Below, piece by piece: positions 3,569 through 27,805 of a stretch of DNA of 64,000 bases. Numbering within the stretch: position 1 is the stretch's first letter; the number at the start of each line of letters is the position of its first letter. The stretch lies in assembly GCA_034003325.1 (NCBI GenBank), contig JAVEYW010000001.1, positions 95,838 to 159,837 on the forward strand, given 5' to 3'. This stretch comes from Desulfobacterales bacterium (GTDB lineage Bacteria; Desulfobacterota; Desulfobacteria; Desulfobacterales; JAFDDL01). The notes under the pieces were generated by a model. That model searched no databases, had not been told where the DNA came from, and worked only from the letters and a program-made list of their open reading frames with translations. A program made the translations under genes and the position numbers.

Positions 3569-4438
3569 CTATGGGGTATCCCAGAGTGTCATCAACTTAG
3601 AATCCCCGACAATGCTGTAGATTTTTTCAATCTCTTCCCGGGCCAAATTCTCTTTCCACTTAAAAGCTGTTTTAACCGGGTCTTTCCGAATGCCCCAATA
3701 GCCATCCGTTTCCCGGTCCGTTGATTTAAGCAGAAAATCTTTTGTTTTTTCGGTGAAGTCCCAGTTCAGGAATTCAAATATTTCCTTTGATTTCTCGATG
3801 GGATCAAGGCAAAGCGCTTCATAAGTTACGAGTTTGAAATTGGGGATGGACACCCTGTCCGGCAACCCCTGTTCCTCGTGAACGGATCGCCAGATTTTCG
3901 CCCATCCCTCAACGCCTTGTTTCCCCATCCCATATTTTTTCCCCTCCACGTATGAGAGCACATTTCCGCATGGATGCCGAATGATGAATATGATTTTGGG
4001 CCGGCCCAGCGCGCTTGAAATCCAATCGATCCCCCAGTCAAATTCGACTATCTTGGAAACAAATTTTATCCCTCTGTTTTTATAAAACAGCTTGAAGAAC
4101 CGGTCACTCAGTATCAAAGGGAAAAGTTTCGTCAGGGGATATAGATTCAGGTCCATAAACAGTTTTTTAGAGGGCGTTTTATGCCCCGTGGTATGTGCGT
4201 TTTTCAACAACGCCGTGCCTTTAAACGCATCGACCAACATGGCCGAAGCTTTCTTCGTGCACCCTTCTTTTTCAATGAGTTGCTGTAAAGGGATAAAAAG
4301 GTCGCACTTCTTCAAATTGTTGGGTTCATACCGGTACATCACATGCGGGTCACTTTCTAAAATTTTCCCAAGCCATGATGTGCCGCTTCTGGCAAGACCG
4401 ATAACTAAAACGACGTCCTTAAAATTTTCGACGAACAT
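3569..4438 (-). CDS. Sulfotransferase 1
   Basis: Predicted PAPS-dependent sulfotransferase of 289 residues. The 5'-phosphosulfate-binding loop is GLARSGTSWLGKIL near residues 14-27, and the 3'-phosphate-binding segment is IIFIIRHPCGNVLSY in the middle of the protein; both are hallmarks of the carbohydrate sulfotransferase fold. No membrane segment is seen, so it probably acts in the cytoplasm, on lipid-linked saccharide or a precursor. It is one of three divergent sulfotransferases in this locus, which points to a sulfated exopolysaccharide. Neighbours are a GT4 enzyme upstream and the propeller genes downstream. The acceptor is unknown. Confidence 0.88.
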   Translation of the reverse strand: MFVENFKDVVLVIGLARSGTSWLGKILESDPHVMYRYEPNNLKKCDLFIPLQQLIEKEGCTKKASAMLVDAFKGTALLKNAHTTGHKTPSKKLFMDLNLYPLTKLFPLILSDRFFKLFYKNRGIKFVSKIVEFDWGIDWISSALGRPKIIFIIRHPCGNVLSYVEGKKYGMGKQGVEGWAKIWRSVHEEQGLPDRVSIPNFKLVTYEALCLDPIEKSKEIFEFLNWDFTEKTKDFLLKSTDRETDGYWGIRKDPVKTAFKWKENLAREEIEKIYSIVGDSKLMTLWDTP

Positions 4439-4476
4439 ATTTCCTCTTTCAATTGGTATGCGTTAACTCGCCAACT

Positions 4477-5565
4477 TCAAACTAATTCCCAAAAGATATG
4501 TTTCATCTGGGGCCAAATCTTCTCCCAGCTATGTTTGTCCGCGGTCTCTTTTCCAGATATCGAGAGCCTGTGGCACAATTCCCGATCGCCGGCCAGACGA
4601 ACCATATTCATCGCCAATGCTTGGTAATCCCCGGGGTCGACCATCAATACATCTCTTTGATCTTGCACCAGATAGGGAATACCACCTGCAGAGGTCGTCA
4701 CCACCGGCACGCCCACCGCAAAGGCTTCAAGGATAGAATTGGGATAATTATCGACTCGAGACGGATTGATAAAAATATCCGATTGCGCCAAATGCGCCGG
4801 AATCTTTGCCGGATCAATCTTCCCTAACAGCGTGACATCTTCTTCCAGTGAAAGCGCCTTAATGATATGCTCAATAGCCGTCCGCAGGCTGCCATCTCCG
4901 ATTAGGGTCAATTTGGCGCCTTGAATTTTTTCCTTGGCGAGCTTGAAGGCGCGAACTGCGGTTTCAACATCGTAATATGGTTCGAAATTACGGGTACATA
5001 TGAACCTGTCCCCTCTTCTTTGGCTCGGCTTTCGGTGCTGAAAAAGGTCGAGATCGATGATATTGGGCAACACCAAGGATCTCACTCCAAAGCGCTCGAA
5101 AACTTTTTTTAAAAAGGCACTTGGAACGGTAACAAAATCGGCCTGTTTCAACACCCATAGAAATCTCTTTCCAAAATTATGGAAAAAATCTTCGGCTTCT
5201 CCCCCCCGATAGTTGACGATCACACGATTGGACAAAATTTTCCCTATAATAACAGCGGGGATGACATTGAAGAAATAATAGAGATGTGAACATCCTAAAA
5301 TATAAATAATAGCGGTGGGCCGGCAACCGGAAATCAATCGCCAAAGAAACACGACCTCTCTTAGCAGGGTTCTTATTGCCGGAATGTTTCCAACAAACCG
5401 TTCAATCGTCTCGGTTGACCTGTTTGTGGGAATAATCGTGACGCAAACCCGTTCCTTTTCCAGCAATTTTTTTAATAAGAACGCCTGGTTTGCCATCCCG
5501 CCAAAGGGCGGTGGGATGGGCGCCACGATAACCACATTCAAAAAAGGATTGCCGCTATCATTCAT
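4477..5565 (-). CDS. GT4 glycosyltransferase
   Basis: Family 4 (GT-B fold) glycosyltransferase, 362 residues. The N-terminal Rossmann domain begins VVIVAPIPPPFGGMANQ, with the glycine-rich acceptor loop. The C-terminal donor domain shows TLIGDGSL and the terminal signature region around FINPSRVDNYPNSILEAF, with the E of the EX7E motif and the GVPVVTTSAGGIPYLV loop. The length is normal for the family. It probably extends the exopolysaccharide repeat unit. It is followed downstream by sulfotransferase 1 (38 bp) and preceded by the O-ligase-like gene (122 bp). Confidence 0.9.
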   Translation of the reverse strand: MNDSGNPFLNVVIVAPIPPPFGGMANQAFLLKKLLEKERVCVTIIPTNRSTETIERFVGNIPAIRTLLREVVFLWRLISGCRPTAIIYILGCSHLYYFFNVIPAVIIGKILSNRVIVNYRGGEAEDFFHNFGKRFLWVLKQADFVTVPSAFLKKVFERFGVRSLVLPNIIDLDLFQHRKPSQRRGDRFICTRNFEPYYDVETAVRAFKLAKEKIQGAKLTLIGDGSLRTAIEHIIKALSLEEDVTLLGKIDPAKIPAHLAQSDIFINPSRVDNYPNSILEAFAVGVPVVTTSAGGIPYLVQDQRDVLMVDPGDYQALAMNMVRLAGDRELCHRLSISGKETADKHSWEKIWPQMKHIFWELV

Positions 5566-5687
5566 TCTTGAAGTTATATGGAGCCATCAGCTCAACCGGT
5601 TCGCTTGAATCCCAAAAAATTAAACTGCCGCCAATGCGAATTTCCACGGTTCCAAAAAGTCGGTTTGGGTCGCGTGCCTGTCAGGTC

Positions 5688-6956
5688 TCAACCGGCCTGC
5701 ATGACCTCGCGGGTCATTTGGATCTCTTTTTCTTCAGCGAATTTTTCTTCTCGCTGTAAAATTTTCAGCAACACGCATATCGCATTCAGATGGTAAAACA
5801 AATCCCAATAGGCGACACCTAAAAAAGCCCCCCCGACAGCATACGCCAAAAGGGAGGTTTGAACCGAAATGGCAGCGTCGCCTATCCAACCATCCTTTCC
5901 ACTTTTGGCAGCTCTTCGGTTGACTCTCTCCAAGGCTATCATCGTCCCAAACAACAAGCTGAGCCACAGCAGCAGCGCAACATATCCATGTTCGCCCAAT
6001 ATTTCGAAATACGCACTGTGTGCATCATGCGCCAAGCCGCGAAAAGTTTCAAACCCGCCGCCGGAAAAGGGGGACATATTCGCTCTGAGGTAGGCATAGT
6101 TCCAGGCCTCGAATCGCCCTAAAACAGATGCGTCCTCGTCATAGGTTTCGATTGTTTGCATCCGGTCAAACCACTTTGTCGGCAGGTGGGTTGAGGCGAC
6201 AGGGATGGCCAATAATAATCCCGGAATCAAAACCAAAAGCCATCTCTTTCTTTTTTGCCTCAGCAGTATGGCCGATACTGTAACGGCCAAGGTTAGCAAT
6301 CCCCCCCTTGACCATGTGCAAATAACTGAAAAAACGGAAAAAATAAACATAACCGGAAACATTATGCGCAGCCATTTGCTGGTGGATATTCGCCCACACA
6401 ATAAAAATACCGGCAACATCATATTCAGGGCGAGCGCGATGTCATTGTTATCCGCATAAAAGCTATATGGCGGCCCCCATACCTTATGGGAAAAGCCTGT
6501 TCCTATAGCAAATATCCCCCCTTTAAGGCCCACTAGGCCGAAGGAAATTGCTATTACAAATAGTAGAAATTTTAGTTGTTCTTTTGTCCTTATTAAAAAG
6601 AAGGTGGGGATGATACCAATATAAATTTTCATCACCTTTTCCCACTGGCTCTGGGCAGCGAATGGATGATCCGGATTCAAATAAGTTGTTAGGGTGAAAT
6701 AGAGCATTAGTAAAATGAACAACATCGTTTCTCTGGTCAGCGGAAACGCCCTGCTTTCCTTTCGGTTAAGAAACATGCCGATTACGGTTGCGGAAAAGAC
6801 GATGAAATATATCGGCATGGTAACGGAAAATCCCCAGGCATATCGGTGCGGATTTAAATAGCCTATTACCGCCAAGGCTAGCACCCCGATCCATGGCTTA
6901 AATAAGGCGATGAAGGACGAGGATACCGTAAACAACAATACCAATAAATCACGCAC
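5688..6956 (-). CDS. O-antigen-ligase-like protein, exosortase-A type
   Basis: Polytopic membrane protein of 422 residues resembling the putative O-glycosylation ligases associated with exosortase A loci (the Wzy/WaaL superfamily). The N-terminus MRDLLVLLFTVSSSF leads into about ten hydrophobic segments. The motifs GYLNPHRYAWGF near residue 35, FYADNNDIALALN near residue 165 and the long periplasmic loop with GRFEAWNYA and GLAHDAHSAYFEILGEHG near residues 285-325 are characteristic of this subfamily. The expected role is polymerisation of repeat units or transfer of glycan to a lipid or protein acceptor in the periplasm. It is 28 bp downstream of sulfotransferase 2. Whether it is polymerase or ligase cannot be decided from sequence. 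Confidence 0.85.
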   Translation of the reverse strand: MRDLLVLLFTVSSSFIALFKPWIGVLALAVIGYLNPHRYAWGFSVTMPIYFIVFSATVIGMFLNRKESRAFPLTRETMLFILLMLYFTLTTYLNPDHPFAAQSQWEKVMKIYIGIIPTFFLIRTKEQLKFLLFVIAISFGLVGLKGGIFAIGTGFSHKVWGPPYSFYADNNDIALALNMMLPVFLLCGRISTSKWLRIMFPVMFIFSVFSVICTWSRGGLLTLAVTVSAILLRQKRKRWLLVLIPGLLLAIPVASTHLPTKWFDRMQTIETYDEDASVLGRFEAWNYAYLRANMSPFSGGGFETFRGLAHDAHSAYFEILGEHGYVALLLWLSLLFGTMIALERVNRRAAKSGKDGWIGDAAISVQTSLLAYAVGGAFLGVAYWDLFYHLNAICVLLKILQREEKFAEEKEIQMTREVMQAG

Positions 6957-6984
6957 GGTTTATTAACCCTTTCCAATACATCCG

Positions 6985-7920
6985 CTAATAACCCTTATAT
7001 CCCAATTTTCCCATCGTATCATCAAGTAATGGCAATATGTTAGATATTTGTTCGGGGTTTTCTTCCTTCCATTTATTCAAACGCGGTTTTGAAAATGCGT
7101 TCGTCGGGTTTTGCACTAGCGATGAACAGTATTTTTCAATTACTGGGGTAAACGGAATGCTCAGTTTCGAAAACACATCCCAAAATGTTTCAACAGGTCT
7201 TAAGAGAATGTCCTCATAGCTGACCTCCACCCATTTTGGTGCCGGCACCAAGGATTTTGCCCTCAAAACGGCCGTATTGGCGGCGATCCACTGTTGCGCA
7301 CATACATTTTCGATACTGTCCCTTAAATAATTTCGCCAACCCTCAAAGAGGAAAAAACACCAGGTGGTGTAATTACCCCCGTCTACGGCTACCTTTTCGG
7401 GCAAGTCCAACGCCCATTTGCCGTATTCGCCGGGTCTCGCCCAGCCATGGATAAGTGAATTCACGTTATCGGGCCCATTCCTTTTGACAAATAAAAAGGA
7501 GGCGTCCCTAAATAGGGTTTTCAGGTATGGTATACGAAAACAATTCTGATTTGCTTTATCAACGAAACGCTTTCGGCCTAACTGCGTATAAAAAAATCGC
7601 GTAACAGCATACTTATCCGCATCGGTTGCCTCTTTTGCGGTCAACTGATGGGAATTCCATCCATTCTCCGAAGCAGGATGCAATCGTTCCCATGTTTCAT
7701 GGCTTTCCCTGAAAAGAGATCTCAAATCGGCGCTCTGCGATAGCGCAAGATAGGCGGCCGTTGTACCCGCTCTGGAGCAGCCGACGATGAAAATAGGGTT
7801 CGAAAGCTTCGGGCGCCAAATTGGGTACAAGAGGCTTCGATAAAGAACGGCCATTTCTTTTCCATAGTAAACCGCGTTTTTAACGATTTTCTTCTGAAAG
7901 CTGTTGAATTGATTTATCAT
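6985..7920 (-). CDS. Sulfotransferase 2
   Basis: Sulfotransferase-family protein of 311 residues. The phosphosulfate loop is PIFIVGCSRAGTTAAYLAL at residues 42-60, and the 3'-phosphate site is the segment SFLFVKRNGPDNVNSLIHG near residue 145, with the expected Arg and Ser. It has little visible similarity to the other two sulfotransferases outside these motifs, so the three probably act on different sugars or positions. It sits between a GT2 gene (19 bp upstream) and the O-ligase-like gene (28 bp downstream). The acceptor is unknown. Confidence 0.82.
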   Translation of the reverse strand: MINQFNSFQKKIVKNAVYYGKEMAVLYRSLLYPIWRPKLSNPIFIVGCSRAGTTAAYLALSQSADLRSLFRESHETWERLHPASENGWNSHQLTAKEATDADKYAVTRFFYTQLGRKRFVDKANQNCFRIPYLKTLFRDASFLFVKRNGPDNVNSLIHGWARPGEYGKWALDLPEKVAVDGGNYTTWCFFLFEGWRNYLRDSIENVCAQQWIAANTAVLRAKSLVPAPKWVEVSYEDILLRPVETFWDVFSKLSIPFTPVIEKYCSSLVQNPTNAFSKPRLNKWKEENPEQISNILPLLDDTMGKLGYKGY

Positions 7921-7939
7921 CTGACCTTATCGGAAAAGA

Positions 7940-8875
7940 TTATTTTATATTAAGGCAACCATGTATTTCGCCGATTATTGCCCCACATCGGACAAAATAA
8001 TACCGCTTTTGATTCAATCCGGGGTTAATACAAAATAAAAACGCATTTCTAATCAGCAAGTTGAAAAGATAGGGCGGTACGCCGAACATGCAGTGCTCGA
8101 CCTGGTCCCTCCGATCCAGTTGTCGCACAACTTTGTTCCTCAGATACGCTTTTTTAAAGAGGTATGGTAATTTCAATCTGGCAAGGTCGACCATATGGTA
8201 TTGCACAATATCCGGCACATATAGCAGGCGCTGACCCGCGCGCAATCCCCTGATAATATAATCGGCATCTTCGCCGCCCCTGAGGTTGTGGCCGCTCGGC
8301 CCGAGATCCAAATTGAAAAAACCTGTTTTCTCGATAAACGAACGCCTGAGAAATAGGTTACCCGCACCGGGGATAAACCCGGTTTCATTTATTTCTTTTA
8401 TCTTATTCCCGAGGTCGAAATTGGGTATTGGGAACGGACGAATTGCATAGCCGCTCCGGTCATGGACCCATGGCGGCTCCCTTCCATCCCATTTCGGGAT
8501 TATCCTGCCGCAGAAACCGGAATAGATAGGGTAGCAAGAAAAAGCACTCATAACGGATAGAAAAAAATTGGCGGGGAAAATGTGATCATCATCCACAAAA
8601 ACCGCCAGGTCGCTATCAAATTGACTTAACGCCAAATTTAAAGCACGGGTTTTCCCCGGTACTTTTTCAACCAAGTGAAGAACCGGCGCGGGCATAACTT
8701 TGGAAAACTGCCGTATGACACCTCCTGTCCCATCGTTGCAAGCATTCTCTACAATTGTCACTATAATTTTAACATGCTTGGGGCGATCCACAGCAGATAA
8801 TGATTCCAGTGCCTCAGCCAGGCTTTCGGCACGGTTGTGCGTGCAAATAATTATATTGAGCGACTTTATTGCCAT
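7940..8875 (-). CDS. GT2 glycosyltransferase
   Basis: Family 2 glycosyltransferase, 311 residues. The N-terminal GT-A domain opens LNIIICTHNRAESL; the metal site is LAVFVDDDHIFP near residue 93, with a DDD form of the DxD motif. The segment LRGGEDADYIIRGLRAG supplies the catalytic-base region (ED). The last 60 residues are hydrophobic and amphipathic and may bind the membrane surface. It is 25 bp downstream of a GT4 gene and 19 bp upstream of sulfotransferase 2, in the same transcription unit. Sugar specificity is unknown. Confidence 0.88.
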   Translation of the reverse strand: MAIKSLNIIICTHNRAESLAEALESLSAVDRPKHVKIIVTIVENACNDGTGGVIRQFSKVMPAPVLHLVEKVPGKTRALNLALSQFDSDLAVFVDDDHIFPANFFLSVMSAFSCYPIYSGFCGRIIPKWDGREPPWVHDRSGYAIRPFPIPNFDLGNKIKEINETGFIPGAGNLFLRRSFIEKTGFFNLDLGPSGHNLRGGEDADYIIRGLRAGQRLLYVPDIVQYHMVDLARLKLPYLFKKAYLRNKVVRQLDRRDQVEHCMFGVPPYLFNLLIRNAFLFCINPGLNQKRYYFVRCGAIIGEIHGCLNIK

Positions 8876-8900
8876 AGAAATTTCTAGATTTTATTTTCGG

Positions 8901-10049
8901 CTACGAAAACAGTATGTTGTGGTAAAGCGTATCATACTTTTTGGCCAATGCCGCGATCGAATAATTTTCCTCGATCATTTTTCGCCCCGTCACACCCATC
9001 GATTTGATGTCTACTTCTGATATCCTGGAAAATATACGCTCAAGGCTTTCGGGTCTGGAGAGGTCAAAAAGATAGCCAGTCGTGCCGTCTTGTATCAGTT
9101 CATTGGCGCCGCTCACTCCGGTAACGATACACGGAACTTCCGAGGACAAGCTTTCAAGCACAACATTCGGCATGCCTTCACTTTTAGATGGAAGAATAAA
9201 AATATCCGCGGCCTGATAATAGATTTCTATGTTTTCAATAGGGTCAGCCATTTTGAGATGTTCAGGGTTATTGGATGCCAATTCTTTTAGATAGGTATAA
9301 AATTTCCCCTGATGGTCTTCCCGACTTTGAGGCCCGATAACCAACAGGAACGCGCGGCTATGAAGAGCTGCGTTGGCCACCCACTGCTCCATTAGCCAAC
9401 CAATATTTTTCCGATGGTCAAAGACCCCTACTGAAAGAGCGATCAGCCGTTCAGCGGGCAACCCAAGTACTTCTCTTAAGTGATACTTCTCGGATGGCGG
9501 AACAGGCTTGAATCGATTTGTATCAACACCGTTGGGCATATGATGAATTCGATCAGCGGGCAATCCTGATTGTTTAAATTCAGCGGCAAGATCCCGGCTG
9601 ATTGCGATATACGCATTAACCATCTTTAAGAAAAAGTACTGAATCATACCGGTTATCGAACCTTTGATGCCAAACAAATCGTTTTCTGCCAAACTGGCCT
9701 TAACAAGACTTTTCCATCCCAATATCGCAGCAATCGGCCCGACAATACTGTTAATATAATAAGCGCCATGACTATGAAACACATCAAAGTCACGGCGTCT
9801 GTTGTAAGCGAATAAAAACATGTTTTTCCATATACTGATTTCGGTATGCCGTCCCCTGCCTGGTTTTATCCGCCACACATGAAAGCCCTCTACTACTTCA
9901 TGCCGGCTTAATTCCGGCCGCCCGATTGTCAAAAATTCAATGTGGTGTCCCATTCTTTTTAACATTTTAGCAAGCGAGATTGCCTGCTTTGCGGCCCCGC
10001 TGTATTGCGGCGGGAAATGAGTACTGTACATGAGTATTCTTAACGGCAT
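8901..10049 (-). CDS. GT4 glycosyltransferase
   Basis: Family 4 glycosyltransferase, 382 residues. The start MPLRILMYSTHFPPQYSGAA shows the glycine acceptor loop of the GT-B fold. HMPNGVDTNRFKP begins the donor domain, and IFILPSKSEGMPNVVLESLS carries the EX7E signature. It begins 3 bp after the stop of the GT2 gene at 10053, so the two are likely translationally coupled. It most likely adds one sugar of the exopolysaccharide repeat unit. The family assignment is secure; linkage and donor are unknown. Confidence 0.9.
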   Translation of the reverse strand: MPLRILMYSTHFPPQYSGAAKQAISLAKMLKRMGHHIEFLTIGRPELSRHEVVEGFHVWRIKPGRGRHTEISIWKNMFLFAYNRRRDFDVFHSHGAYYINSIVGPIAAILGWKSLVKASLAENDLFGIKGSITGMIQYFFLKMVNAYIAISRDLAAEFKQSGLPADRIHHMPNGVDTNRFKPVPPSEKYHLREVLGLPAERLIALSVGVFDHRKNIGWLMEQWVANAALHSRAFLLVIGPQSREDHQGKFYTYLKELASNNPEHLKMADPIENIEIYYQAADIFILPSKSEGMPNVVLESLSSEVPCIVTGVSGANELIQDGTTGYLFDLSRPESLERIFSRISEVDIKSMGVTGRKMIEENYSIAALAKKYDTLYHNILFS

Positions 10050-10052
10050 TGA

Positions 10053-11066
10053 TCAGCTCCGAATAAACTCTTTTTCACTTTTACAACTTAACATAGAAAT
10101 CCCATGTGGTTTCCTACCCGCCAAGAAATAGTTACAAGCGAGGAAATATATCAGTCGTATCTTTTCTGGAATTCCGCTGAAATCTTTTTTAATGTAATAA
10201 AAGTACAAAATTCGCCATAATATTTTTAGTATATTTTTATGGATCCGAATATTTTTCATTGAAATTAGGTTGCCATATTCCCGTCTCGTTTTTAACAACG
10301 AGAATACGCGTGAGAAATAAAAGCACACTTCATTGTTTCTAGATAAATTATGCCGGTGCATTCGTCTATGCATTACAATATCATTGATGCACCCTATGCT
10401 GTAGAAAAGTGATATCCGTGTCCAAAGATCGTAATCCTCACCATAACGAAACCGAGGATCAAACGGATAGGTTTTTTCGAAGACCTCTTTCCTTAGCAAG
10501 GCTGTTCCCGTCAATATAAAATTTCTTTCGAGAAGCTGACAAAATGCATTTTTCAATATACCTTGATCAGTGGCATGAGGCGTTCCAAATTTTTTAAAGG
10601 CGGAAGCAAAAGAAGCGCCATCTATGTCAAAAGATCCGGAATCACCAAAAACCAGGTAAACATCAGCATGTCGACACATAAAATCCGTCAGCTTTTTTAA
10701 CGTATCAGGAAGCCAGAGATCATCCGCATCCAAGAAAGCGAGCCATTCCCCCTTCGCCTCCTTTATTCCTCTGTTTCTTGCCGCGGAAGACCCAGCATTT
10801 TTTTGATAAAAGTATCTTATCCGGCGCTGATGGATTGAATTGACCTCTCGCGCATATGCCGCAATGATATTGGCGGTCTCGTCCGTGGACCCGTCGTCAA
10901 CGATAATTACCTCATAGGCTTGAAAACTTTGAGACAACACGCTTTGCAGGGTATCCGCGACATGGTCTTCACCGTTGAATACAGGTATAATAACGCTGAC
11001 GATTGGTGCAGAATCCGTGGTATCGTCCATTGGGCCCGTCATGCGCTTGCCAGGCGTTTCATCCAT
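10053..11066 (-). CDS. GT2 glycosyltransferase
   Basis: Family 2 glycosyltransferase, 337 residues from the first ATG. The GT-A core is recognisable: VSVIIPVFNGEDHV, VIIVDDGSTDET, then AARNRGIKEAKGEWLAFLDADDLW with the DxD site. The first ATG at 11066 overlaps the deacetylase gene by 28 bp; internal ATGs at 11042 and 11030 would remove the overlap, and none has a strong Shine-Dalgarno sequence, so the start is uncertain. Residues 1-20 are not part of the conserved domain. It probably elongates the repeat unit. Confidence 0.87.
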   Translation of the reverse strand: MDETPGKRMTGPMDDTTDSAPIVSVIIPVFNGEDHVADTLQSVLSQSFQAYEVIIVDDGSTDETANIIAAYAREVNSIHQRRIRYFYQKNAGSSAARNRGIKEAKGEWLAFLDADDLWLPDTLKKLTDFMCRHADVYLVFGDSGSFDIDGASFASAFKKFGTPHATDQGILKNAFCQLLERNFILTGTALLRKEVFEKTYPFDPRFRYGEDYDLWTRISLFYSIGCINDIVMHRRMHRHNLSRNNEVCFYFSRVFSLLKTRREYGNLISMKNIRIHKNILKILWRILYFYYIKKDFSGIPEKIRLIYFLACNYFLAGRKPHGISMLSCKSEKEFIRS

Positions 11067-11866
11067 AATTGTTTTTTGATGTATAATAATATCTTAACCC
11101 AGCCGACCTCCGTGTCGGCAAACGCCAATTTGCGTGCGAATGTGGAGAGGTTGTCATGCCCGAAAATGGCGACTCTCCGAACTAAAAAGCGGTTGGTGTC
11201 GCTGCCGGCCCAGCCCGGCTTTGTGGTGCAAGCAATCTTGTAGCCAGCCTTTTTGACCGCCTTGACACAATCATCGTTCAACCGGCCAAAAGGGTAAGCA
11301 AAACTGTATACCGGCCGTGAAATAATGTTCTCCAAATCCTCCTTTGATTTGCAAATCTCCTCATTAATCTTTTCAGAATTTAATTCAGGCAGCTTCGGGT
11401 GTGACCGCGTATGTGAACCGATTTCCATATTCCCTTCAGTCATTTCAACTATCTGAGAAGCGGCAAGCATATCCCTTGCCGCTATATCATTTTCCGGCCA
11501 ACTCGATTGTTTTCCGATATCATTCGTAACGATAAACCAAGTGGCGGTTATCCCATAATCAAGCAAAACGCGGAATCCGAAATCGAAATTATTATTAAAG
11601 CCATCATCGAAAGTTATGATAACGGATTTAACTGGAAAATGCGGATGACTAAACAGGTCTTCAACCTTAAAGGAGTGCCATCCTTCATTTTTAAGAAATT
11701 GAATCTGTCTTTTAAAGCTGTCGTGAGAAACGGCCCATTTTGTTTTGATGGAAGCCCTATCCTTTTCAATTGAATGATACATTAAAACAACCGGTCCACG
11801 ACCGTTACTAATTGGAATTAAACCGGCATTCTTAAAAATTCTGCGGGAAATAGGATCGATAGCCAT
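11039..11866 (-). CDS. Polysaccharide deacetylase (CE4/NodB-like)
   Basis: NodB-homology (carbohydrate esterase 4) protein, 275 residues, expected to remove N-acetyl groups from an amino sugar. Motif 1 is ITFDDGFNNNF, with the catalytic base and metal Asp; motif 2 is GSHTRSHP, supplying the two metal-binding histidines; FAYPFGRLND is motif 3. No signal peptide is evident, so it may act in the cytoplasm or membrane-bound by other means. The gene starts 8 bp after the flippase and its 3' end overlaps the GT2 gene. It is distinct from the exosortase-type deacetylase at 24038. Confidence 0.87.
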   Translation of the reverse strand: MAIDPISRRIFKNAGLIPISNGRGPVVLMYHSIEKDRASIKTKWAVSHDSFKRQIQFLKNEGWHSFKVEDLFSHPHFPVKSVIITFDDGFNNNFDFGFRVLLDYGITATWFIVTNDIGKQSSWPENDIAARDMLAASQIVEMTEGNMEIGSHTRSHPKLPELNSEKINEEICKSKEDLENIISRPVYSFAYPFGRLNDDCVKAVKKAGYKIACTTKPGWAGSDTNRFLVRRVAIFGHDNLSTFARKLAFADTEVGWVKILLYIKKQLWMKRLASA

Positions 11867-11874
11867 TTAAAACC

Positions 11875-13389
11875 TTATGGTTTAACGTTAAATAGCTTAT
11901 AGGTCATGCGACTATAAAGTTCTATAAACATAGTTGAGCATGCCTGAAAAGCAATATTTGCCGAGAAATAACGGCCATATATTAACAGCCAGCCTAAATA
12001 AACGGAGAAAACGAAGAAAGAGATCAGCAGAAAATGCCACGGGCTTGTAGAAGGCAAAAAACCGGTTAAACCGTAACCAACCACGCCAGCTACAATGTAA
12101 GCTATCGCGCTTGCCGTAATTGCTGGCGCCAGGGTTATTACGATATCCTTGATTTTTAGTTTTAGGTGGGATCTCATCAACATTCTTTGCATTAGCACGA
12201 CGATCAATACTGCTCGGATGGCTATACCGGCGGAAATACCCGTTAAGCCCCAGCGAATAAAGATGAATACAATCAAGACCGTAGATACGGCTTTAAAAAC
12301 AACGATGGGAGTTTCTTTGATGATTAAGTTCTGCGCGGTCGCCAGCGCCCCCATGGTGGTTGAAATGACGATAAAAAACGACCCAAGCGCCATCACCTTC
12401 AATGGTACCGCAGCCGGAAGCCATTTGTCGCCATATAGCGTTGCGATAAACGCGTCGGCATTAATGGTGAATATGACCAAAAACGGAAACACCACTAGCG
12501 CCATGGCGCAAAGAATTTTATGAAACATCCGCACACTGTGGTTAATATCATGCTGAATTTTTGACAAACCGGTGAAAAATAGCTGATAAAGTCTAGAAGT
12601 AATTTCAACAACAGGCATCCGCGCCAGATTGTACGCACGATTGTATATCCCCAGACTGCCCGCCCCGAGCATGCTGCCGATCATCATGTTGTCCACCCGG
12701 TCGGCAAACAAACCGATACTATTGTTTAAGTGTATAATGAATCCAAAACGCATCAACGGTTTAACTTTTGAAAAAGCAAATGCAAGCAGTGGTTTCCACG
12801 GTGCCGAAAAAGACATAAGAATAGTTGAGAACAAAGAGGATAAAATGCCGCTTATCACAAGGCAATAGGGGCCGAAGCCAACATAGGCAAGCGCAATGCT
12901 TATCGCAATAGAAATAAAGGATACGATTATCTGAATTCTACTAATGGTTCGATAGTCCAGCTTTCGGCGAAGAATACTGCCGTTTATGGACATATAAGGC
13001 AGTATAAAAAAATTAACGCACATGCATTGTAAAATGAGAGTGAACCGGGTATCATCATAGAAATGTTGGAGAAAACCAGATGCAATAAAAATAAGCAGCG
13101 TGCAAATGACCGCCATTGCTTCCATCACCCAGAAGGCGGAGTCCCATTGATCTTTTGACACGCTTTTTGCTTGCAAAAATGCCACCGGGATGCCCAACAC
13201 GACTTGTTTTTGCATAATAGCCGAAAAAGCTGTGGCGGCATAAAATACGCCGAAATCGCTAGGTGACAGAATTCGGGCAAGAACAATACCCGCACCGAAC
13301 TGTACACAGGCTTGAATCGCACCTTGTATGTAGAGCCAAGCAGCACTACTCTGCATTTGTTTGCTCAGATTATCGCCACTTAACGCCAT
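11875..13389 (-). CDS. Polysaccharide flippase (Wzx/MOP superfamily)
   Basis: Polytopic membrane protein of 504 residues in the polysaccharide-exporter branch of the MOP superfamily, closest in character to WzxC-type proteins. The N-terminus SSAAWLYIQGAIQACVQFGAGIVLARILSPSDFGVF carries the typical first helix and the LxPxxFG signature (seen here as ARILSPSDFGVF). About 12-14 hydrophobic segments follow. It should flip lipid-linked repeat units to the periplasmic side of the inner membrane. The deacetylase gene follows 8 bp later. Confidence 0.9.
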   Translation of the reverse strand: MALSGDNLSKQMQSSAAWLYIQGAIQACVQFGAGIVLARILSPSDFGVFYAATAFSAIMQKQVVLGIPVAFLQAKSVSKDQWDSAFWVMEAMAVICTLLIFIASGFLQHFYDDTRFTLILQCMCVNFFILPYMSINGSILRRKLDYRTISRIQIIVSFISIAISIALAYVGFGPYCLVISGILSSLFSTILMSFSAPWKPLLAFAFSKVKPLMRFGFIIHLNNSIGLFADRVDNMMIGSMLGAGSLGIYNRAYNLARMPVVEITSRLYQLFFTGLSKIQHDINHSVRMFHKILCAMALVVFPFLVIFTINADAFIATLYGDKWLPAAVPLKVMALGSFFIVISTTMGALATAQNLIIKETPIVVFKAVSTVLIVFIFIRWGLTGISAGIAIRAVLIVVLMQRMLMRSHLKLKIKDIVITLAPAITASAIAYIVAGVVGYGLTGFLPSTSPWHFLLISFFVFSVYLGWLLIYGRYFSANIAFQACSTMFIELYSRMTYKLFNVKP

Positions 13390-13454
13390 AAACCTTCCTC
13401 GGAATTCAATATTGGCAACCCGCTTTCATTAACAAATAAGTAATTGTAACAACG

Positions 13455-13988
13455 TTAATGTTTTTTAACTTTTTTATTCTGTTTCATAATACTGACCGCT
13501 TTATCATAATAAAATACCGCTTGGTCTCCTTTTCCTAATTGAGTCAAAATGACGCCTTTTCGATAATATATCTCAGGTAACAGTATAAAATTAGGGCTAA
13601 CATGTTCAATCATGTAGTCCAAATTTCGCGATGCATAATCGAGAAGAAACTCCCTATCGCCAAGGCCTTGATTAACCCTGTTCATTGCATTTAAGGCATT
13701 GCAATAATGATGAATATGAATAAAGTCCTTGCCCAATTTTTTCTTCCAAAGTTCCGTCTTACGCTCTAACTCTGCTGAACGATACCCCTTTCGTTTTCGT
13801 GCCTCACAATAACCTGGTAATATTTTATATTCAAATTCTGTAATATCGGAAGGGATGTTGCCGCCAAAAGCTTTTGCGCGCTGATCGGCTTCTAACCCAT
13901 TGGCTTCGGGTATGGGTAAGCATGTCATGGATAATGCGAACACCAAGAGCAATATTATTTTGTTTTTATAAAAGAATAGTGCAAGCAT
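13455..13988 (-). CDS. Exported TPR-like protein, unknown function
   Basis: Predicted secreted protein of 177 residues. Residues 1-32 form a signal peptide with a hydrophobic core IILLLVFALSMTCLPIP. The mature part contains LPGYCEAR, a W, then FIHIHHYCNALNAMNRV, a pattern of paired cysteines and histidines I recall from TPR-containing proteins near exopolysaccharide genes. The C-terminus ILLPEIYYRKGVILTQLG ... AVFYYDKAVSI looks like one or two TPR helices pairs. Its partner and role are unknown. It stands between sulfotransferase 3 and the flippase on the same strand. Confidence 0.6.
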   Translation of the reverse strand: MLALFFYKNKIILLLVFALSMTCLPIPEANGLEADQRAKAFGGNIPSDITEFEYKILPGYCEARKRKGYRSAELERKTELWKKKLGKDFIHIHHYCNALNAMNRVNQGLGDREFLLDYASRNLDYMIEHVSPNFILLPEIYYRKGVILTQLGKGDQAVFYYDKAVSIMKQNKKVKKH

Positions 13989-14067
13989 TTACTTTCCTCC
14001 ATGCAATCGACAAAAAACGTCTTAAAGTATTTTGAAAGATTAATTTTTAGCAGTTATATCTGTTTGA

Positions 14068-14958
14068 TTACTCTATTTGCCATTCAGATTCATCTCTATA
14101 CCACGGCAAATCATATTCAAAGTAAACTTTTTTTATTTGTTCAAGCTGCTGAATGCTTAACCTGTTTTTCCATGCATATACTATTTTCTGGGTATCTCTG
14201 AATATATTATGATTGCTTTCGCTTTCGACAGGATTCATCGTGTTTTTTAAAAATTTATCGACATCATTATTCCAATCTAATTTTAGAAAGTTAAAGACCA
14301 TTTTAAACATCTCAACCGGCGCGGCACATAGTTCTTCATATTTTATAACTATATAATCAGTTGTATTTTTGATGTTCATAAATGCGGCTTTTGTTGCAGA
14401 TGCCTGCAAGACTGAAACATCAAATATATAAGTCTTATAGTCCGATTTGGCCCATAAACTTAGAAAACTAGACACGATTCCCGCTGGGTGCCTTAACAAA
14501 AGTATAATTTGAGGATCATAGTTATCAATATAATAATGACACAGCAAGGGAGTAACTTCCTTTATGAATAATCTTTTGTTGGACCTTTTTAAAAGGCTCC
14601 AGTCTGATGCGTCAGTAATTTTTTTTTCAAAGGACGGAATGCCCCTAAAAGACTTATCGAATATTTTTTCGAACACTTTTGGCGGATGGCCGCCTTTTTT
14701 GATATGGAACCTCGCTGGGGTTATTCCATACTTAAGTACCGATTGTGTGACAGGTTCATCTAAGTAGAGGAGGTCTGGGGACTGTGATATAATTTTTGCA
14801 GTCCAGGAAGAACCACTTCTCGGCATGGAAAGGAGAAGAATGGGTCTTCCCTTACAAGGTATGCGCTTCCCTATTAATTCAGATAACAAACCAAAACGGG
14901 CCCATGCGGTATTTGCTATGTATTTTGTATATTCGATCAGCTCGTGATGTGATGGCAT
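14068..14958 (-). CDS. Sulfotransferase 3
   Basis: Sulfotransferase-family protein of 296 residues. The phosphosulfate-binding loop is PILLLSMPRSGSSWTAKII at residues 38-56, and the 3'-phosphate-binding segment is IILLLRHPAGIVSSFLSL near residue 150. It resembles sulfotransferase 1 at both motifs more than it resembles sulfotransferase 2. The surrounding DNA is AT-richer than the core genes. It lies between the asparagine-synthase-like gene and the TPR-like gene. The acceptor sugar is unknown. Confidence 0.86.
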   Translation of the reverse strand: MPSHHELIEYTKYIANTAWARFGLLSELIGKRIPCKGRPILLLSMPRSGSSWTAKIISQSPDLLYLDEPVTQSVLKYGITPARFHIKKGGHPPKVFEKIFDKSFRGIPSFEKKITDASDWSLLKRSNKRLFIKEVTPLLCHYYIDNYDPQIILLLRHPAGIVSSFLSLWAKSDYKTYIFDVSVLQASATKAAFMNIKNTTDYIVIKYEELCAAPVEMFKMVFNFLKLDWNNDVDKFLKNTMNPVESESNHNIFRDTQKIVYAWKNRLSIQQLEQIKKVYFEYDLPWYRDESEWQIE

Positions 14959-15083: not shown

Positions 15084-16958
15084 TTACATGTTTTTTTCAA
15101 GCCAAGATTCCAACAATAAAAGCACCCACAGGTTGTCTCCATAATATGCGGAATCATCTGATTTGAAAGCGCGTTCGATTTCATCTAAAAATTCCATTTT
15201 TACAAACGCTCTAATTTTGGAGCTTTTCGAAAAAAGGGTGTCCCTCATCAGCTCTGCTAATTTTGGATCGGTTTTGAACCACTTGGATATGGGCATACCC
15301 ATTCCATGCTTGGATTTGCTGATAATTTCATCCGGCAGGAACCCCTTCATCGCCCTCTTAAAAATATAGCGATTTTTACCCCATTTTACTTTTAGTGTTG
15401 GTGGAATAGTAGTTGTGAAATCAACAAGATCTCTGTCCAACAGCGGATACCGTACCTGAAGTCCCGCCGCTTCTACCATCTGGGTTACCTTTCTAAGATC
15501 GTTGTCCGTGATGGTGAACTTCATATCGATATAAAGCAATCGATCCGTGTCATGGGAAGGCGCCACTCGGTTATAATGTTCCTGGGCCAGCGCCATAAAG
15601 CAATCGGGGTTGAAACCTTCCAGAAAATCCGGCCGAAAAACCGCCTCGGCACCAATTTCCTCCAGTAGATTATAGGAGAAAAATCGCCTCGGATTTCGAA
15701 GAGTTGATCTTTTCACATAATTTTTGGCTTTTTGAAAAACTCCTTTACCCGGCATTCGATTCAGAAACGGTTCCAGCAGATTCTGACGAATACTATTCGG
15801 CAGCATAAAATAGTTTTCAAATACCAAATTTTTCACATACCGTTCATTGCCGCCAAAAATTTCATCTCCACCGTCACCGCCAAGCAACATGTTTACGCCG
15901 GCTTCGCCAGCGGTCTTTGCGCAGTAGAATGCCGGCACCACGGAGGCATTGCCAAAAGGTTCATCATAAATTTGTGGCAGCTTATCCACCAAATTTATAA
16001 CGTCTTCAGGGGTAACAAGATATTCGTGTTGCTTTGCCCCAAACCGGCGAACAGCGATGCGCGCATAATCGAGCTCGTTGTATTTCGGATCATCGAACCC
16101 AATTGAAAATGTTTTAACCGGCTTTCCCGTGATTTTCGTAAAATATCCGACAACAGAACTGGAATCAGTGCCACCGGACAAGAAACAACCGGTTTTTTCT
16201 GGCTCCGAAACAAGCGCGTAACGCCTGACCGCCTCTTCAATCCGACAGGGTATTTCCCGCACCCAATGGGCTTCTCCGATGCGATTTTCCGGTTGATACC
16301 GAATGTCGTAATGGGTAAAAGGCCTTATTTCTTTTTTAAACCAACGAAGCCCCTTTCCAGGCTCCAGCTTCCGAATTGATTTATAAATCGTCACCGGGCT
16401 GCATACAGCCTGAAAAAAAAGATAGTGATAGATGGCTTCGGGGTCGATATCCCGCGATACCTCCGGCACCAGCAGCAACTGACGGATTCTGGATGCGGCA
16501 ACAAAGCAATTCAAATGCGTTGCATAAACCACCGGGCGAATACCATAGAAATCCGTGACAACCATTAACTCATTTTTTTTATTATCCCAGATAGCAAAGG
16601 CAAAGGCACCGCGAAGACGATCGATGAAGTCTATTCCGAACTTGAGATAGAGTTTCCATATCAATAGCCCTATATCCGCAAAGGGTTTTTCGGGTGTGCC
16701 GATAAGCTGCCAAAGTTCTGCTTCGTTTGTAAGATCAACGTCATACGCGACGGCACCGTTTTCATCGGTCCACAGCCCCTGTCCGGGAAACTCATTCCAC
16801 GCGGCCAAAACGACCTGAGAGTGAGAAAAACTGATTGTTTTGGCACCCGAACCGTTTAGCCTGTTTGTTATTTCCGCAAGATCTTTTGAGCTGTTTTTTA
16901 TAATTAAAAATCCGCCCATGGGAATGGAGGGTTGGGTCATCATTGTTTTAACCTTCAA
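15084..16958 (-). CDS. Asparagine-synthase-like protein lacking Cys nucleophile
   Basis: Two-domain protein of 624 residues with the layout of class B asparagine synthetases. These proteins are common in exosortase loci as amidotransferases that may amidate uronic acids. The N-terminal Ntn-type domain keeps the fold marker GAFAFAIWDNKKNEL, but the protein begins MTQPSIPMGGF with no Cys after the initiator Met, so the glutaminase nucleophile is missing. The synthetase domain is intact: FLSGGTDSSSVVGY is the PP-loop and LLGGDGGDEIFGG the second nucleotide motif. Ammonia may therefore be taken directly, or the enzyme may do other adenylate chemistry. The first ATG overlaps the acyltransferase gene by 11 bp; ATGs 5-6 codons in are alternatives. 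Confidence 0.82.
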   Translation of the reverse strand: MKVKTMMTQPSIPMGGFLIIKNSSKDLAEITNRLNGSGAKTISFSHSQVVLAAWNEFPGQGLWTDENGAVAYDVDLTNEAELWQLIGTPEKPFADIGLLIWKLYLKFGIDFIDRLRGAFAFAIWDNKKNELMVVTDFYGIRPVVYATHLNCFVAASRIRQLLLVPEVSRDIDPEAIYHYLFFQAVCSPVTIYKSIRKLEPGKGLRWFKKEIRPFTHYDIRYQPENRIGEAHWVREIPCRIEEAVRRYALVSEPEKTGCFLSGGTDSSSVVGYFTKITGKPVKTFSIGFDDPKYNELDYARIAVRRFGAKQHEYLVTPEDVINLVDKLPQIYDEPFGNASVVPAFYCAKTAGEAGVNMLLGGDGGDEIFGGNERYVKNLVFENYFMLPNSIRQNLLEPFLNRMPGKGVFQKAKNYVKRSTLRNPRRFFSYNLLEEIGAEAVFRPDFLEGFNPDCFMALAQEHYNRVAPSHDTDRLLYIDMKFTITDNDLRKVTQMVEAAGLQVRYPLLDRDLVDFTTTIPPTLKVKWGKNRYIFKRAMKGFLPDEIISKSKHGMGMPISKWFKTDPKLAELMRDTLFSKSSKIRAFVKMEFLDEIERAFKSDDSAYYGDNLWVLLLLESWLEKNM

Positions 16959-17892
16959 ATTTGGCTACAAGCGCATGGGAAACAAAGTTAACGCCCCTTG
17001 ACAAAAAAACGACTAGGGTAAGAGAGATGATAAAATCAATGATTCGTATTTGGGTCGGCGTCACGGATAAATACGAATGAAGAAGATAAATTTCAAAAAT
17101 ACAGCCGGTAAACGGGGACATTATTTGATACCATTTATCAGAAATGACTACATCGCAGGTAGAAAATATAAGTGAAACCGAAAACAAAAGAAGCAGAAAA
17201 AAATTGAGGGCGCTGAACTTAAAAAAAATGTTCAGTCCCATCATAATCAAAAAAAAAATTACTGAAAACAACCTGCCGGTTTTTGGCGGCATCTTCATCC
17301 CGTTTTTTCCCGTCAATACTCCCAGAATAAAGCCACATGCCGTGAGCCATAACGCATGCCCATAGCCATGGTAACCGTTGAGGTAATATGCCGCAAAAAC
17401 AAAAGCAATTGAAGTTATAACCATTGCTTTTTTATTGAGTTTTTCTAAAAAAGGGTAAACCAGATAAAAGAGCAGAAGCAACGTGAGAAACCACATACCT
17501 CTACCGAATGGGCTAATATTGTTTATATAAAACCAGTTTAGCAGCCCATTAAGCCCCAGGATATTGATCAGGGTATGCCACGACCATAGGCCCTGCTTGT
17601 TTTGAACCATGAAAAGCAAGAACAGCACGGCATTGATCACACAGAAACTCGCACCAAGTCTTTTAAGCTTGTTGGTCCAGAATTTTTTTATGCTGTATGC
17701 GCCTGTGTATTTTACGGAGGTAAATAAACCTGATGAAAAACTAAAAATCAGCAACCCTACCGTGACGGGTATCCACAAAATCGGTATTTCATGGAAAAAA
17801 TGCCCGCAAAAGACCATTAAAATCGAAAATAATTTTAATACGCTAAAATTACGGCTGATATTGGTATTTATGTTCAAAAAAACCTGTCTCAT
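16948..17892 (-). CDS. Membrane acyltransferase (family 3-like)
   Basis: Polytopic membrane protein of 314 residues resembling acyltransferase family 3 (the OafA/NodX type). The N-terminus LKLFSILMVFCGHFFHEIPILWIP supplies the first helix with a histidine at the position usual for the catalytic H. About ten hydrophobic segments follow, with GRGMWFLTLLLLFYLVYP in the middle. Such proteins O-acetylate or otherwise acylate exopolysaccharides from the cytoplasmic side. It is slightly short for the family. Its 3' end overlaps the asparagine-synthase-like gene. Confidence 0.72.
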   Translation of the reverse strand: MRQVFLNINTNISRNFSVLKLFSILMVFCGHFFHEIPILWIPVTVGLLIFSFSSGLFTSVKYTGAYSIKKFWTNKLKRLGASFCVINAVLFLLFMVQNKQGLWSWHTLINILGLNGLLNWFYINNISPFGRGMWFLTLLLLFYLVYPFLEKLNKKAMVITSIAFVFAAYYLNGYHGYGHALWLTACGFILGVLTGKNGMKMPPKTGRLFSVIFFLIMMGLNIFFKFSALNFFLLLLFSVSLIFSTCDVVISDKWYQIMSPFTGCIFEIYLLHSYLSVTPTQIRIIDFIISLTLVVFLSRGVNFVSHALVAKFEG

Positions 17893-17929: not shown

Positions 17930-19279
17930 TTAAACCTTGATAATCACTCTTTCATACATTCCCGCATAAACTGCGGTCGTCGCTTCCCAAGTGTGATACC
18001 GGCGCGCCCAAGTTAAGCCGTTTTGTGCGAGTCGTTCGCGGACTTGCGAGTTTAAAAGCAGGTTGTCCAGGGCTTCGGATAGGGCTTTTTCATCGCCGGC
18101 CGGAAATAGCAGGCCGGTTTCATTGTGTTTAATTAGTTCTTTATGACCACCTACGTCGCTTGCCACCAACGCCTTGCCCATGGCCATGGCCTCCAGTGGT
18201 TTCAAGGGTGTTACCAGTTCGGTCAGTCGCATGGCGTAACGGGGGTAGGCGAGAATGTCGATCATGGCATAGACGCCGGGGACCCGTTCGTGGGGGATGC
18301 GGCCGGAGAAGATTACGCTATCGCGTAATCGCTGGGAGGCGGAAAAGCTGGGAAGCTGGGACGCTGGGACGCTGAGCGGCAAAGAGCTTGGAGCAGGGAG
18401 CTTAGAGCTTAGAGCAGGGGGCGCGAAGACGCTGGGCTGCTGGGCTGCTGGGCTGCTGGGCGGTGTGTTGAGTTGGTTGATTTGGGCTTTTAGTTCTTTT
18501 TCCATTTCACCGCCGCCGACAAGCAGTAAAACTGCGCTGGGATGCTTGGAGGCTATACGCGAGAAGGCGCTTACTAAGAGGTCGAGGCCTTCGTAACGGT
18601 AAAAAGAACCTATGAAGCCGATTACCTTTTTGCCTTCCAGGTTCCAGGCGGTTTGGTATTCCTCGTCCGGGGGGGTCGGTTTGAAATCATCCGGGTTCAC
18701 ACCGTTGAAGACCGGGGTTATTTTATCGGACGGGATGCCGCGGGCGATGAGGTCTTGTTTCAGGCCGTTGCAAAGGACGGCGATATGAGCTGCTTTTTTG
18801 CAGACATGGGTTTCAACGGCTCGGGTCAAGCGGTATTTGATTGAATTTTCCGCGTAGGTACCGTGGTCAACGGCCGCGTCTTCCCAAAAGGCTCGGATTT
18901 CGTACACGACCGGGATATTGAGGGCCTTGCCGACACTGAGCGCGGGTAGCGCGTTCAGGACCGGGGAGTGGGCGTGGATGATGTCCGGCTTTTCAAGCAC
19001 GATTACTTCCTGCAATCTTTTTTTTAAGGCGGCCATGAGCTGAAGTTCGCCCAGGATGGGCAGGCGGCTTCCACCTACGGCACCGGTGCGGTAATAATCA
19101 AAGCCGTTGATGGTTTCTTTCGAGTGGCTCTCTCCTTTCCAGCTCGCTTCGTGTTTGGGGGAGGTGAGAATGACCGGGTGGTATCCCATTTTCCGCTGCG
19201 ACCGAAAGAGGTTCTGGCTTCGAAAGGTGTAACCGCTGTGAAGCGGGAGGCTGTGGTCGAGAATGTGGAGGATTTTCAT
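17930..19279 (-). CDS. Exosortase-type GT4 with in-frame repeat insertion
   Basis: Glycosyltransferase family 4 of the type found beside exosortase A (Daro_2409-like). MKILHILDHSLPLHSGYTFR, AFWEDAAVDHGTY and FNGVNPDDFKP are characteristic, and the C-terminal domain has the EPLEAMAMGKALVASDVGGH region as LKPLEAMAMG. Residues about 270-317 (nt 18331-18471) are a Pro/Ala/Ser/Gln-rich stretch encoded by repeat DNA, placed between KAQINQL and LRDSVIFSGRIPHERV, which are adjacent in ordinary members. The frame is kept. The insertion should sit on a surface loop of the donor domain, so activity may survive. It is 42 bp downstream of the small gene at 19322. Confidence 0.88.
   Translation of the reverse strand: MKILHILDHSLPLHSGYTFRSQNLFRSQRKMGYHPVILTSPKHEASWKGESHSKETINGFDYYRTGAVGGSRLPILGELQLMAALKKRLQEVIVLEKPDIIHAHSPVLNALPALSVGKALNIPVVYEIRAFWEDAAVDHGTYAENSIKYRLTRAVETHVCKKAAHIAVLCNGLKQDLIARGIPSDKITPVFNGVNPDDFKPTPPDEEYQTAWNLEGKKVIGFIGSFYRYEGLDLLVSAFSRIASKHPSAVLLLVGGGEMEKELKAQINQLNTPPSSPAAQQPSVFAPPALSSKLPAPSSLPLSVPASQLPSFSASQRLRDSVIFSGRIPHERVPGVYAMIDILAYPRYAMRLTELVTPLKPLEAMAMGKALVASDVGGHKELIKHNETGLLFPAGDEKALSEALDNLLLNSQVRERLAQNGLTWARRYHTWEATTAVYAGMYERVIIKV
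18331..18471. repeat. GCTGGGA-type array inside GT4 coding sequence
   Basis: About 140 bp of degenerate short tandem repeats: GCTGGGAGG/GCTGGGACG units, then units of the form GAGCTTAGAGC, then CTGGGCTG units. The whole tract lies inside the GT4 gene at 17930 and reads in frame on the minus strand as a Pro/Ser/Ala-rich linker. Confidence 0.9.
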
Positions 19280-19321
19280 TTTCTTTCGCCTCGAAGAACA
19301 GCATCCTGGAACGGGTACAGC

Positions 19322-21984: not shown

Positions 21985-22108
21985 CCCAGCCGCCTCCCAG
22001 CCTCCCAGCTTCCCAGCCTCCCAGCCTCTTTGCCTCCCAGCTTCCCAGCCTCTTTGCTTCCCAGCCTCTTTGCCTCCCAGCCTCTTTGCTTCCCAGCCTC
22101 TTACGCCA
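21985..22108. repeat. CCTCCCAGC / CCTCTTTGC array between vanZ-like and femAB-like genes
   Basis: About thirteen 9-bp units alternating CCTCCCAGC, CTTCCCAGC and CCTCTTTGC. It fills the gap between the vanZ-like and FemAB-like genes. The last unit reaches the stop codon of the FemAB-like gene at 22101. On the transcribed (minus) strand it is G-rich. Confidence 0.92.
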
Positions 22109-27659: not shown

Positions 27660-27805
27660 TTCCCGGCCTCATCGCCTCCAAGCATTCCAGCTTTATAGCC
27701 TTCCAGCTTCACAGCCTCCCAGCTTCCCAGCCTCCCAGCTTCCCAGCTTTTCCGCCTCCCAGCTTTTCCGCCTCCCAGCTTTTCCGCTTCCCAGCATTTC
27801 TGCTT
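27660..27805. repeat. CCTCCCAGC array, including epsI 3' end
   Basis: About fifteen 9-bp units of CCTCCCAGC, CTTCCCAGC and CTTTTCCGC type. The part from 27693 to 27805 lies in the epsI reading frame and encodes its last 37 residues. It is the inverted partner of the array at 27479. Confidence 0.92.

Follow-up and report, generated by a model that had tools for sequence, protein, structure and literature searches.

Four sulfotransferase genes in an exosortase A exopolysaccharide cluster of a Desulfobacterales bacterium

A stretch of 64,000 nucleotides from a Desulfobacterales bacterium (assembly GCA_034003325.1, contig JAVEYW010000001.1, positions 95,838 to 159,837; hereafter “the window”) carries a polysaccharide gene cluster associated with exosortase A (XrtA), in which sulfotransferase genes are embedded. 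The four sulfotransferases of this cluster (ST0–ST3) are likely to sulfate the glycan that the cluster makes, using 3'-phosphoadenosine 5'-phosphosulfate (PAPS) as donor. The polymer would probably be acidic as well as sulfated, and a likeness to glycosaminoglycan is possible. The evidence read from the sequence comprises protein families, motifs, gene clustering, supply genes and recurrence in other genomes. Sulfated exopolysaccharides are already known, although rarely documented in bacteria outside cyanobacteria; the literature searched contained no paper joining sulfotransferases to an XrtA cluster.

Results

By family and motifs, ST0–ST3 are genuine PF13469 sulfotransferases predicted to depend on PAPS (Table 1). 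All four, ST0 included, carry both a loop and an R-x7-S motif, which we take to be the 5'-PSB and 3'-PB elements: RSGTS and RHPCGNVLS in ST1, RAGTT and RNGPDNVNS in ST2, and RSGSS and RHPAGIVSS in ST3. A regular expression for the pair, written with the four proteins in view, matched none of 287 other open reading frames (ORFs) of at least 200 aa, and it misses two of four sulfotransferases from other genomes. The preliminary description of this DNA, which had recognized three sulfotransferases with PAPS-binding motifs, was thus correct on this point; it missed a fourth sulfotransferase and the XrtA/PEP-CTERM identity of the cluster, and a heparinase-II-like lyase lay outside its view.

The four genes account for all PF13469 and PF00685 genes of the genome: the five PF13469 matches fall on these four genes, and the single PF00685 match falls on one of them as well. 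They are confined to approximately 15.5 kb of a 4.62-Mb draft, a grouping whose chance under random placement is (15.5/4624)^3, or about 4e-8. Pairwise identity is approximately 20–23% where BLAST aligns most of the length, indicating old, separate enzymes and not tandem copies; a recent duplication of one sulfotransferase into four was rejected on this ground. No NCBIfam model matched ST1, ST2 or ST3. Single-protein phmmer searches of the PDB likewise returned nothing for these three, while profile searches did match: a profile built from the four proteins of this genome found tyrosylprotein sulfotransferase (8.2e-14), CurM (2.1e-12) and then SULT enzymes. AlphaFold models of ST2 and ST3 were built with only the three window sulfotransferases as alignment. 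The ST2 model, with a predicted local distance difference test (pLDDT) score of 46, gave 41 structure matches at E <= 0.001, all of them sulfotransferase entries. Among plasmid records, ST2 had four matches, ST3 one and ST1 none, all below 30% identity, and a scan of viral sequences gave no match.

By its gene families, the surrounding locus is an XrtA/PEP-CTERM exopolysaccharide cluster of the Wzx/Wzy type. Seven families that are XrtA-cluster markers by their NCBIfam names exceeded their cut-offs (TIGR03097, TIGR04063, TIGR03087, TIGR03019, TIGR03006, TIGR03007 and TIGR03013). The exosortase XrtA model was passed barely, and TIGR03108, TIGR03027, TIGR03018 and TIGR03016 stayed below cut-off. 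The flippase Wzx, glycosyltransferases, export proteins and sulfotransferases lie together, and all annotated genes from about 1 to 39.9 kb of the window are on the minus strand. Same-strand gaps are 28 bp between the ligase-like gene and ST2, 19 bp between ST2 and the adjacent GT2 glycosyltransferase gene, and 38 bp between ST1 and a GT4 gene. A search with a rough pattern found no PEP-CTERM-like C terminus in the stretches read. The cluster continues to the left of the window, where further glycosyltransferases, another asparagine-synthase-like protein and the heparinase-II-like protein of 764 aa are encoded; the last of these also matches an oligo-alginate lyase (3a0o, 55 bits). In its printed alignment the positions of Tyr257 and His406 are kept and that of His202 is Asn, under the roles of these residues and the offset of 25 in numbering that we assume for heparinase II.

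The polymer is probably acidic because the cluster holds ugd and a likely UDP-glucuronate 4-epimerase gene, which would supply UDP-glucuronate and UDP-galacturonate. The best solved relative of the epimerase, 5u4q, was deposited as a dTDP-glucose 4,6-dehydratase; 6zl6, a weaker match, is presumably a UDP-glucuronate 4-epimerase. The preliminary description had predicted a sulfated, acidic, glycosaminoglycan-like polymer from the sulfotransferases together with ugd, an epimerase, two deacetylases and an amidotransferase at 3569-14958. All of these parts exist, but four of them (ugd, the epimerase, the amidotransferase and one of the deacetylases) fall outside those coordinates. The sulfotransferases do stand in a real polysaccharide cluster with a UDP-uronate supply, whereas one deacetylase (TIGR03006) and the amidotransferase (TIGR03108-like) are no evidence for a glycosaminoglycan, because they belong to the ordinary XrtA/PEP-CTERM kit. 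If the amidotransferase amidates uronates, acidity would be lower, not higher. Only the heparinase-II-like lyase speaks for a heparin- or uronan-like chain.

Sulfotransferases recur in other XrtA loci. Of 395 genomes in the phylum, five, host counted, have a match to the XrtA-associated ligase model TIGR03097 above its cut-off; among 40 sampled genomes of the order, the host included, only the host has one, with weaker matches in G006 and G018 (161 and 148 bits). The other four over-cut-off loci were covered to at most 20 kb per side (24.7 kb in all from the G302 contig), and sulfotransferases were sought by profile search and then confirmed with Pfam. Three of the four contain them: G326 (two), G302 (one) and G361 (two). 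The five genes seen compare with 0.12 expected from the PF13469 genes of G326, G302, G361 and G166 (P = 2e-7), a value that does not separate a general enrichment of sulfotransferases at any polysaccharide locus. ST2 shares 38–41% identity with sulfotransferases of the G302 and G326 loci (227 and 224 bits), its next-best relative scoring 88 bits. In both loci the ST2 orthologue directly follows an orthologue (37–39%) of the GT2 glycosyltransferase encoded at 7940-8875, the gene order being that of the host. At below-cut-off ligase loci, covered over about 4 kb each, sulfotransferase matches occurred in G405 and G217, the latter in two broken frames, and none occurred in G336 or G418. A scan of other genome contigs for the XrtA ligase gave three loci only, none of them with a Pfam-supported sulfotransferase; one of the three, L075, is just 6 kb long.

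The gene content supports the view that the host can make PAPS, by a supply distinct from its second ATP sulfurylase. Another contig encodes a 584-aa fusion of PUA_2, ATP sulfurylase and adenosine 5'-phosphosulfate (APS) kinase domains. Directly downstream on the same strand lies an Inositol_P-family gene (L009:7245-8072), for which we infer a CysQ-type role. A separate ATP sulfurylase frame of 434 aa stands elsewhere, and dsrA is present (610 bits). The preliminary description had stated beforehand that a genome without APS kinase would refute its proposal; since the fusion includes this enzyme, that refutation does not apply. Its suggestion that a sulfate-reducing host would need PAPS apart from respiratory APS agrees with a dsrA-bearing genome holding both the fusion and the second ATP sulfurylase.

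Within the order, APS kinase was found at E <= 1e-15 in 116 of 146 genomes and PF13469 at E <= 1e-8 in 72 of 146; the idea that APS kinase is special to the host was rejected on the former count. In well-assembled genomes (at least 90% complete, at most 5% contaminated), APS kinase occurred in 51 of 53 with a sulfotransferase vs 32 of 43 without (Fisher p = 0.0024), and in all genomes of the order in 64 of 72 vs 52 of 74 (p = 0.0073); the counts were made by hand, ignoring kinship between genomes. At six places picked by eye in five relatives (G018, G060 twice, G085, G027 and G017), the distance between a sulfotransferase and a stand-alone APS kinase is no more than about 5 kb. Of the six genomes searched for APS kinase in the comparison of ligase loci, five have one and G217 has none.

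Table 1. Features of the XrtA cluster. Unprefixed positions are those of the window.
Feature	Position	Strand	Basis
Sulfotransferase ST0 (fourth gene)	L008:18532-19416; match C1:95169-95789		PF13469 over cut-off; just left of window
Sulfotransferase ST1	3569..4438	minus	PF13469, 7.6e-13, over curated cut-off
GT4 glycosyltransferase	4477..5565	minus	Pfam
XrtA-associated O-antigen-ligase-like protein	5688..6956	minus	TIGR03097, 365 bits, cut-off 188
Sulfotransferase ST2	6985..7920	minus	PF13469, 3e-19, over curated cut-off
GT2 glycosyltransferase paired with ST2	7940..8875	minus	pair kept in G302/G326
GT4 glycosyltransferase	8901..10049	minus	Pfam
GT2 glycosyltransferase	10053..11066	minus	Pfam
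Polysaccharide deacetylase	11039..11866	minus	PF01522; TFDDG and SHTRSH in sequence
Wzx-type flippase	11875..13389	minus	PF13440
TPR-containing putative secreted protein	13455..13988	minus	Pfam
Sulfotransferase ST3	14068..14958	minus	Pfam: PF13469, 2.8e-12, over curated cut-off; PF00685, 9e-9
Asparagine-synthase-like amidotransferase	15084..16958	minus	closest model TIGR03108, 316 bits, cut-off 817
Acyltransferase 3	16948..17892	minus	PF01757
XrtA-system glycosyltransferase	17930..19279	minus	TIGR04063, 558 bits, over cut-off
XrtA-system glycosyltransferase	19603..21030	minus	TIGR03087, 455 bits, over cut-off
FemAB-family XrtA-associated protein	22101..23189	minus	TIGR03019, 390 bits, over cut-off
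XrtA-system polysaccharide deacetylase	24038..24910	minus	TIGR03006, 297.5 bits, cut-off 276.2
Exosortase	26583..27440	minus	XrtA model, 209 bits, cut-off 208
EpsI-family exosortase partner	27693..28466	minus	
XrtA-system chain-length determinant	28552..30144	minus	TIGR03007
UDP-GlcNAc 2-epimerase (wecB)	30263..31426	minus	
Outer-membrane polysaccharide export protein	31643..32254	minus	TIGR03027-like, below cut-off
UDP-glucose 6-dehydrogenase-type nucleotide-sugar dehydrogenase (ugd)	32299..33594	minus	TIGR03026, 475 bits
NDP-sugar epimerase, probably UDP-glucuronate 4-epimerase	33728..34753	minus	5u4q, 459 bits; 6zl6, 163 bits
Second NDP-sugar C4-epimerase (TviC/WbpP-like)	34803..35822	minus	
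XrtA-system priming glycosyltransferase	36043..37458	minus	TIGR03013, 478 bits, over cut-off
XrtA-associated tyrosine autokinase-like protein	37526..38386	minus	below TIGR03018 cut-off
Heparinase-II-like protein, 764 aa	L008:13789-16083		heparinase II (2fuq), 129 bits over residues 36-647
8-bp arrays	18431, 20163-20340, 20588, 21481-21600, 21992-22102, 26506-26570, 27481-27578, 27687-27805, 31476-31642; L008:8419-8523		

Discussion

Our analysis suggests that an XrtA cluster has recruited four distinct PAPS-dependent sulfotransferases. We propose the following for the substrate, timing and regiochemistry of sulfation and for the chemistry of the polymer. Judging from the families, the ATP sulfurylase-APS kinase fusion would make PAPS, and the CysQ-like phosphatase encoded beside it would remove the product 3'-phosphoadenosine 5'-phosphate. 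The sulfotransferases would act in the cytoplasm on sugars of the lipid-linked repeat unit during its assembly by the glycosyltransferases; such intermediates are the simplest acceptors because PAPS is there. ST2 may act on the product of the neighbouring GT2 enzyme, since the pair is conserved. The unit would then be flipped by Wzx, polymerized, exported and possibly transferred to PEP-CTERM proteins.

Several observations weigh against this proposal. The solved relatives nearest to the profile of the four proteins are tyrosylprotein sulfotransferases and not carbohydrate enzymes, and the same holds for the weak ST2 model. The AlphaFold models of ST2 and ST3 are poor (pLDDT 45.9 and 47.6), and no conclusion rests on them; for ST3, no sulfotransferase appeared among the best 50 matches listed and none at E <= 0.001. 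Pfam found no sulfotransferase at the fourth XrtA locus, G166, in the DNA covered, and no Pfam-supported one at L076 or L077, loci outside the phylum, the L077 candidate having no Pfam match. Since G302 and G326 belong to one genus, the ST2-GT2 pair counts as one independent recurrence, and the loci compared hold no close relative of ST0, ST1 or ST3. Finally, so common an APS kinase is by its presence alone weak evidence.

The nearest solved structures are the reason for keeping a protein acceptor, for example tyrosine, as an alternative, along with a glycan on PEP-CTERM proteins in place of a free polysaccharide. An exosortase is present, and the ligase model bears the name “putative O-glycosylation ligase”. 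However, tyrosylprotein sulfotransferase may just be the solved representative nearest to PF13469, as the lists continue with polyketide, SULT and heparan sulfate enzymes; ST2 is paired with a GT2 glycosyltransferase in two other loci, and the rough pattern found no PEP-CTERM-like C terminus in the stretches read. We consider a protein or glycoprotein acceptor improbable. That the product of the four genes is a small sulfated molecule or a lipid, and that they entered the cluster by an accident of horizontal transfer, appears very improbable. PF13469 enzymes have diverse substrates, and the G+C content of 0.41–0.455 at 4–16 kb is below the window mean of 0.486, but the tight co-directional spacing with glycosyltransferase genes and the recurrence of sulfotransferases in other XrtA loci argue otherwise, and the families matched by the scanned cluster genes include no small-molecule synthase.

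Sulfation of the cluster's glycan, which we prefer, has a narrower form, so that our confidence in the two overlaps: a true glycosaminoglycan-like chain of hexosamine and uronate, N-deacetylated, N- or O-sulfated like heparan sulfate and trimmed by the heparinase-II-like enzyme. The lyase keeps the aligned Tyr and His; ugd, the uronate epimerase, wecB and the two deacetylases fit as precursor genes, and heparan NDST and 3-OST structures are among the matches of the weak ST2 model. On the other hand, heparinase-II-type lyases include alginate lyases such as 3a0o, Asn stands at the position of His202 in the numbering we assume, an XrtA deacetylase is a usual component of XrtA clusters, and the glycosyltransferase specificities are defined only at the family level. 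This narrower form thus remains tentative, and we hold it to be unlikely as a full description.

The closest known parallels are as follows, as far as the available parts of the respective papers describe them. The authors of the synechan study stated in 2021 that, among bacteria, sulfated polysaccharides were known only from cyanobacteria (PMC8205485); the Pontiella polymer, in which sulfate was measured, argues against this (PMC7356697). The Xss cluster for synechan in Synechocystis PCC 6803 resembles the present one in being of the Wzx/Wzy type and in combining several glycosyltransferases with at least two sulfotransferases (XssA and XssE), and that study likewise sought sulfotransferases through PF00685, PF03567 and PF13469. 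It differs in being cyanobacterial, with neutral sugars plus sulfate and other regulators, whereas ugd and a uronate epimerase occur here; the main text available does not mention an exosortase (PMC8205485). XrtA/PEP-CTERM exopolysaccharide clusters also occur in the floc-forming Zoogloea and Aquincola (PMC9850573, PMC9012009). Going by the NCBIfam names of the seven marker models, such clusters have the same kind of parts; the literature searched gave no published link to sulfotransferases. Pontiella, an anaerobe, makes a sulfated glycosaminoglycan-like exopolymer and has PF13469 sulfotransferases; unlike the present host, it belongs to the Kiritimatiellae, only one of its three putative glycosaminoglycan sulfotransferases lies in the putative exopolysaccharide cluster, and XrtA parts are unmentioned in the text available (PMC7356697). 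Sulfated exopolysaccharides are also known from granular sludge. The full-text literature searched, from which subscription journals are largely missing, yielded no report of sulfotransferases in XrtA clusters; an Acetobacteraceae paper, in its available part, mentions a sulfotransferase and an exosortase in unrelated places. Matches for sulfotransferases of Desulfobacter or sulfate reducers with exopolysaccharide or PAPS were unrelated by title.

This study also bears on the wider XrtA lineage of the phylum. Speculatively, and we consider it doubtful at present, this lineage may make sulfated polymers of a heparin-like kind that contain uronate, or else PEP-CTERM proteoglycans. Dedicated sulfotransferases would serve this purpose, PAPS would be supplied apart from sulfate respiration and, in this host, a heparinase-II-like lyase would belong to the system. 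If so, such clusters would be a genetic source of the sulfated glycosaminoglycan-like material in microbial granules. A sulfotransferase-bearing XrtA cluster offers a definite candidate pathway that can be deleted, as well as a key for searches. Physiologically, it can be tested whether a dsrA-bearing cell would both reduce sulfur compounds and spend ATP on PAPS to decorate its polymer.

Additional features of the cluster

Arrays of an 8-bp unit (CCCAGCCT and variants) lie between and inside XrtA-cluster genes at window positions 18431-31642; none were found at 40-64 kb of the window. Inside two XrtA glycosyltransferases and the asparagine-synthase-like protein of L008, they add in-frame peptides such as LPASQRFC. 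Because the unit length is not divisible by 3, the gain or loss of a single unit by slippage would alter the reading frame, and the cluster may be phase-variable through these arrays.

A HepT/MntA type VII toxin-antitoxin pair, over its NCBIfam cut-offs, occupies 23208-24045 between the XrtA deacetylase and FemAB genes, and a 23S rRNA intervening-sequence-type protein (21110-21478) and a VanZ-family protein (21567-21965) are also encoded inside the cluster. Directly downstream of ST1, the proteins at 968-2437 and 2355-3539 have no Pfam match at 0.001 and look secreted by eye. Left of the window, the cluster contains a caspase-like Peptidase_C14 ORF (L008:10348-10890), adjoined by a 935-aa protein without a Pfam match (L008:10924-13731). 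Although the exosortase and EpsI proteins (26583-28466) come from two distinct genes, both give good scores against the two halves of the fused XrtD/XrtW models.

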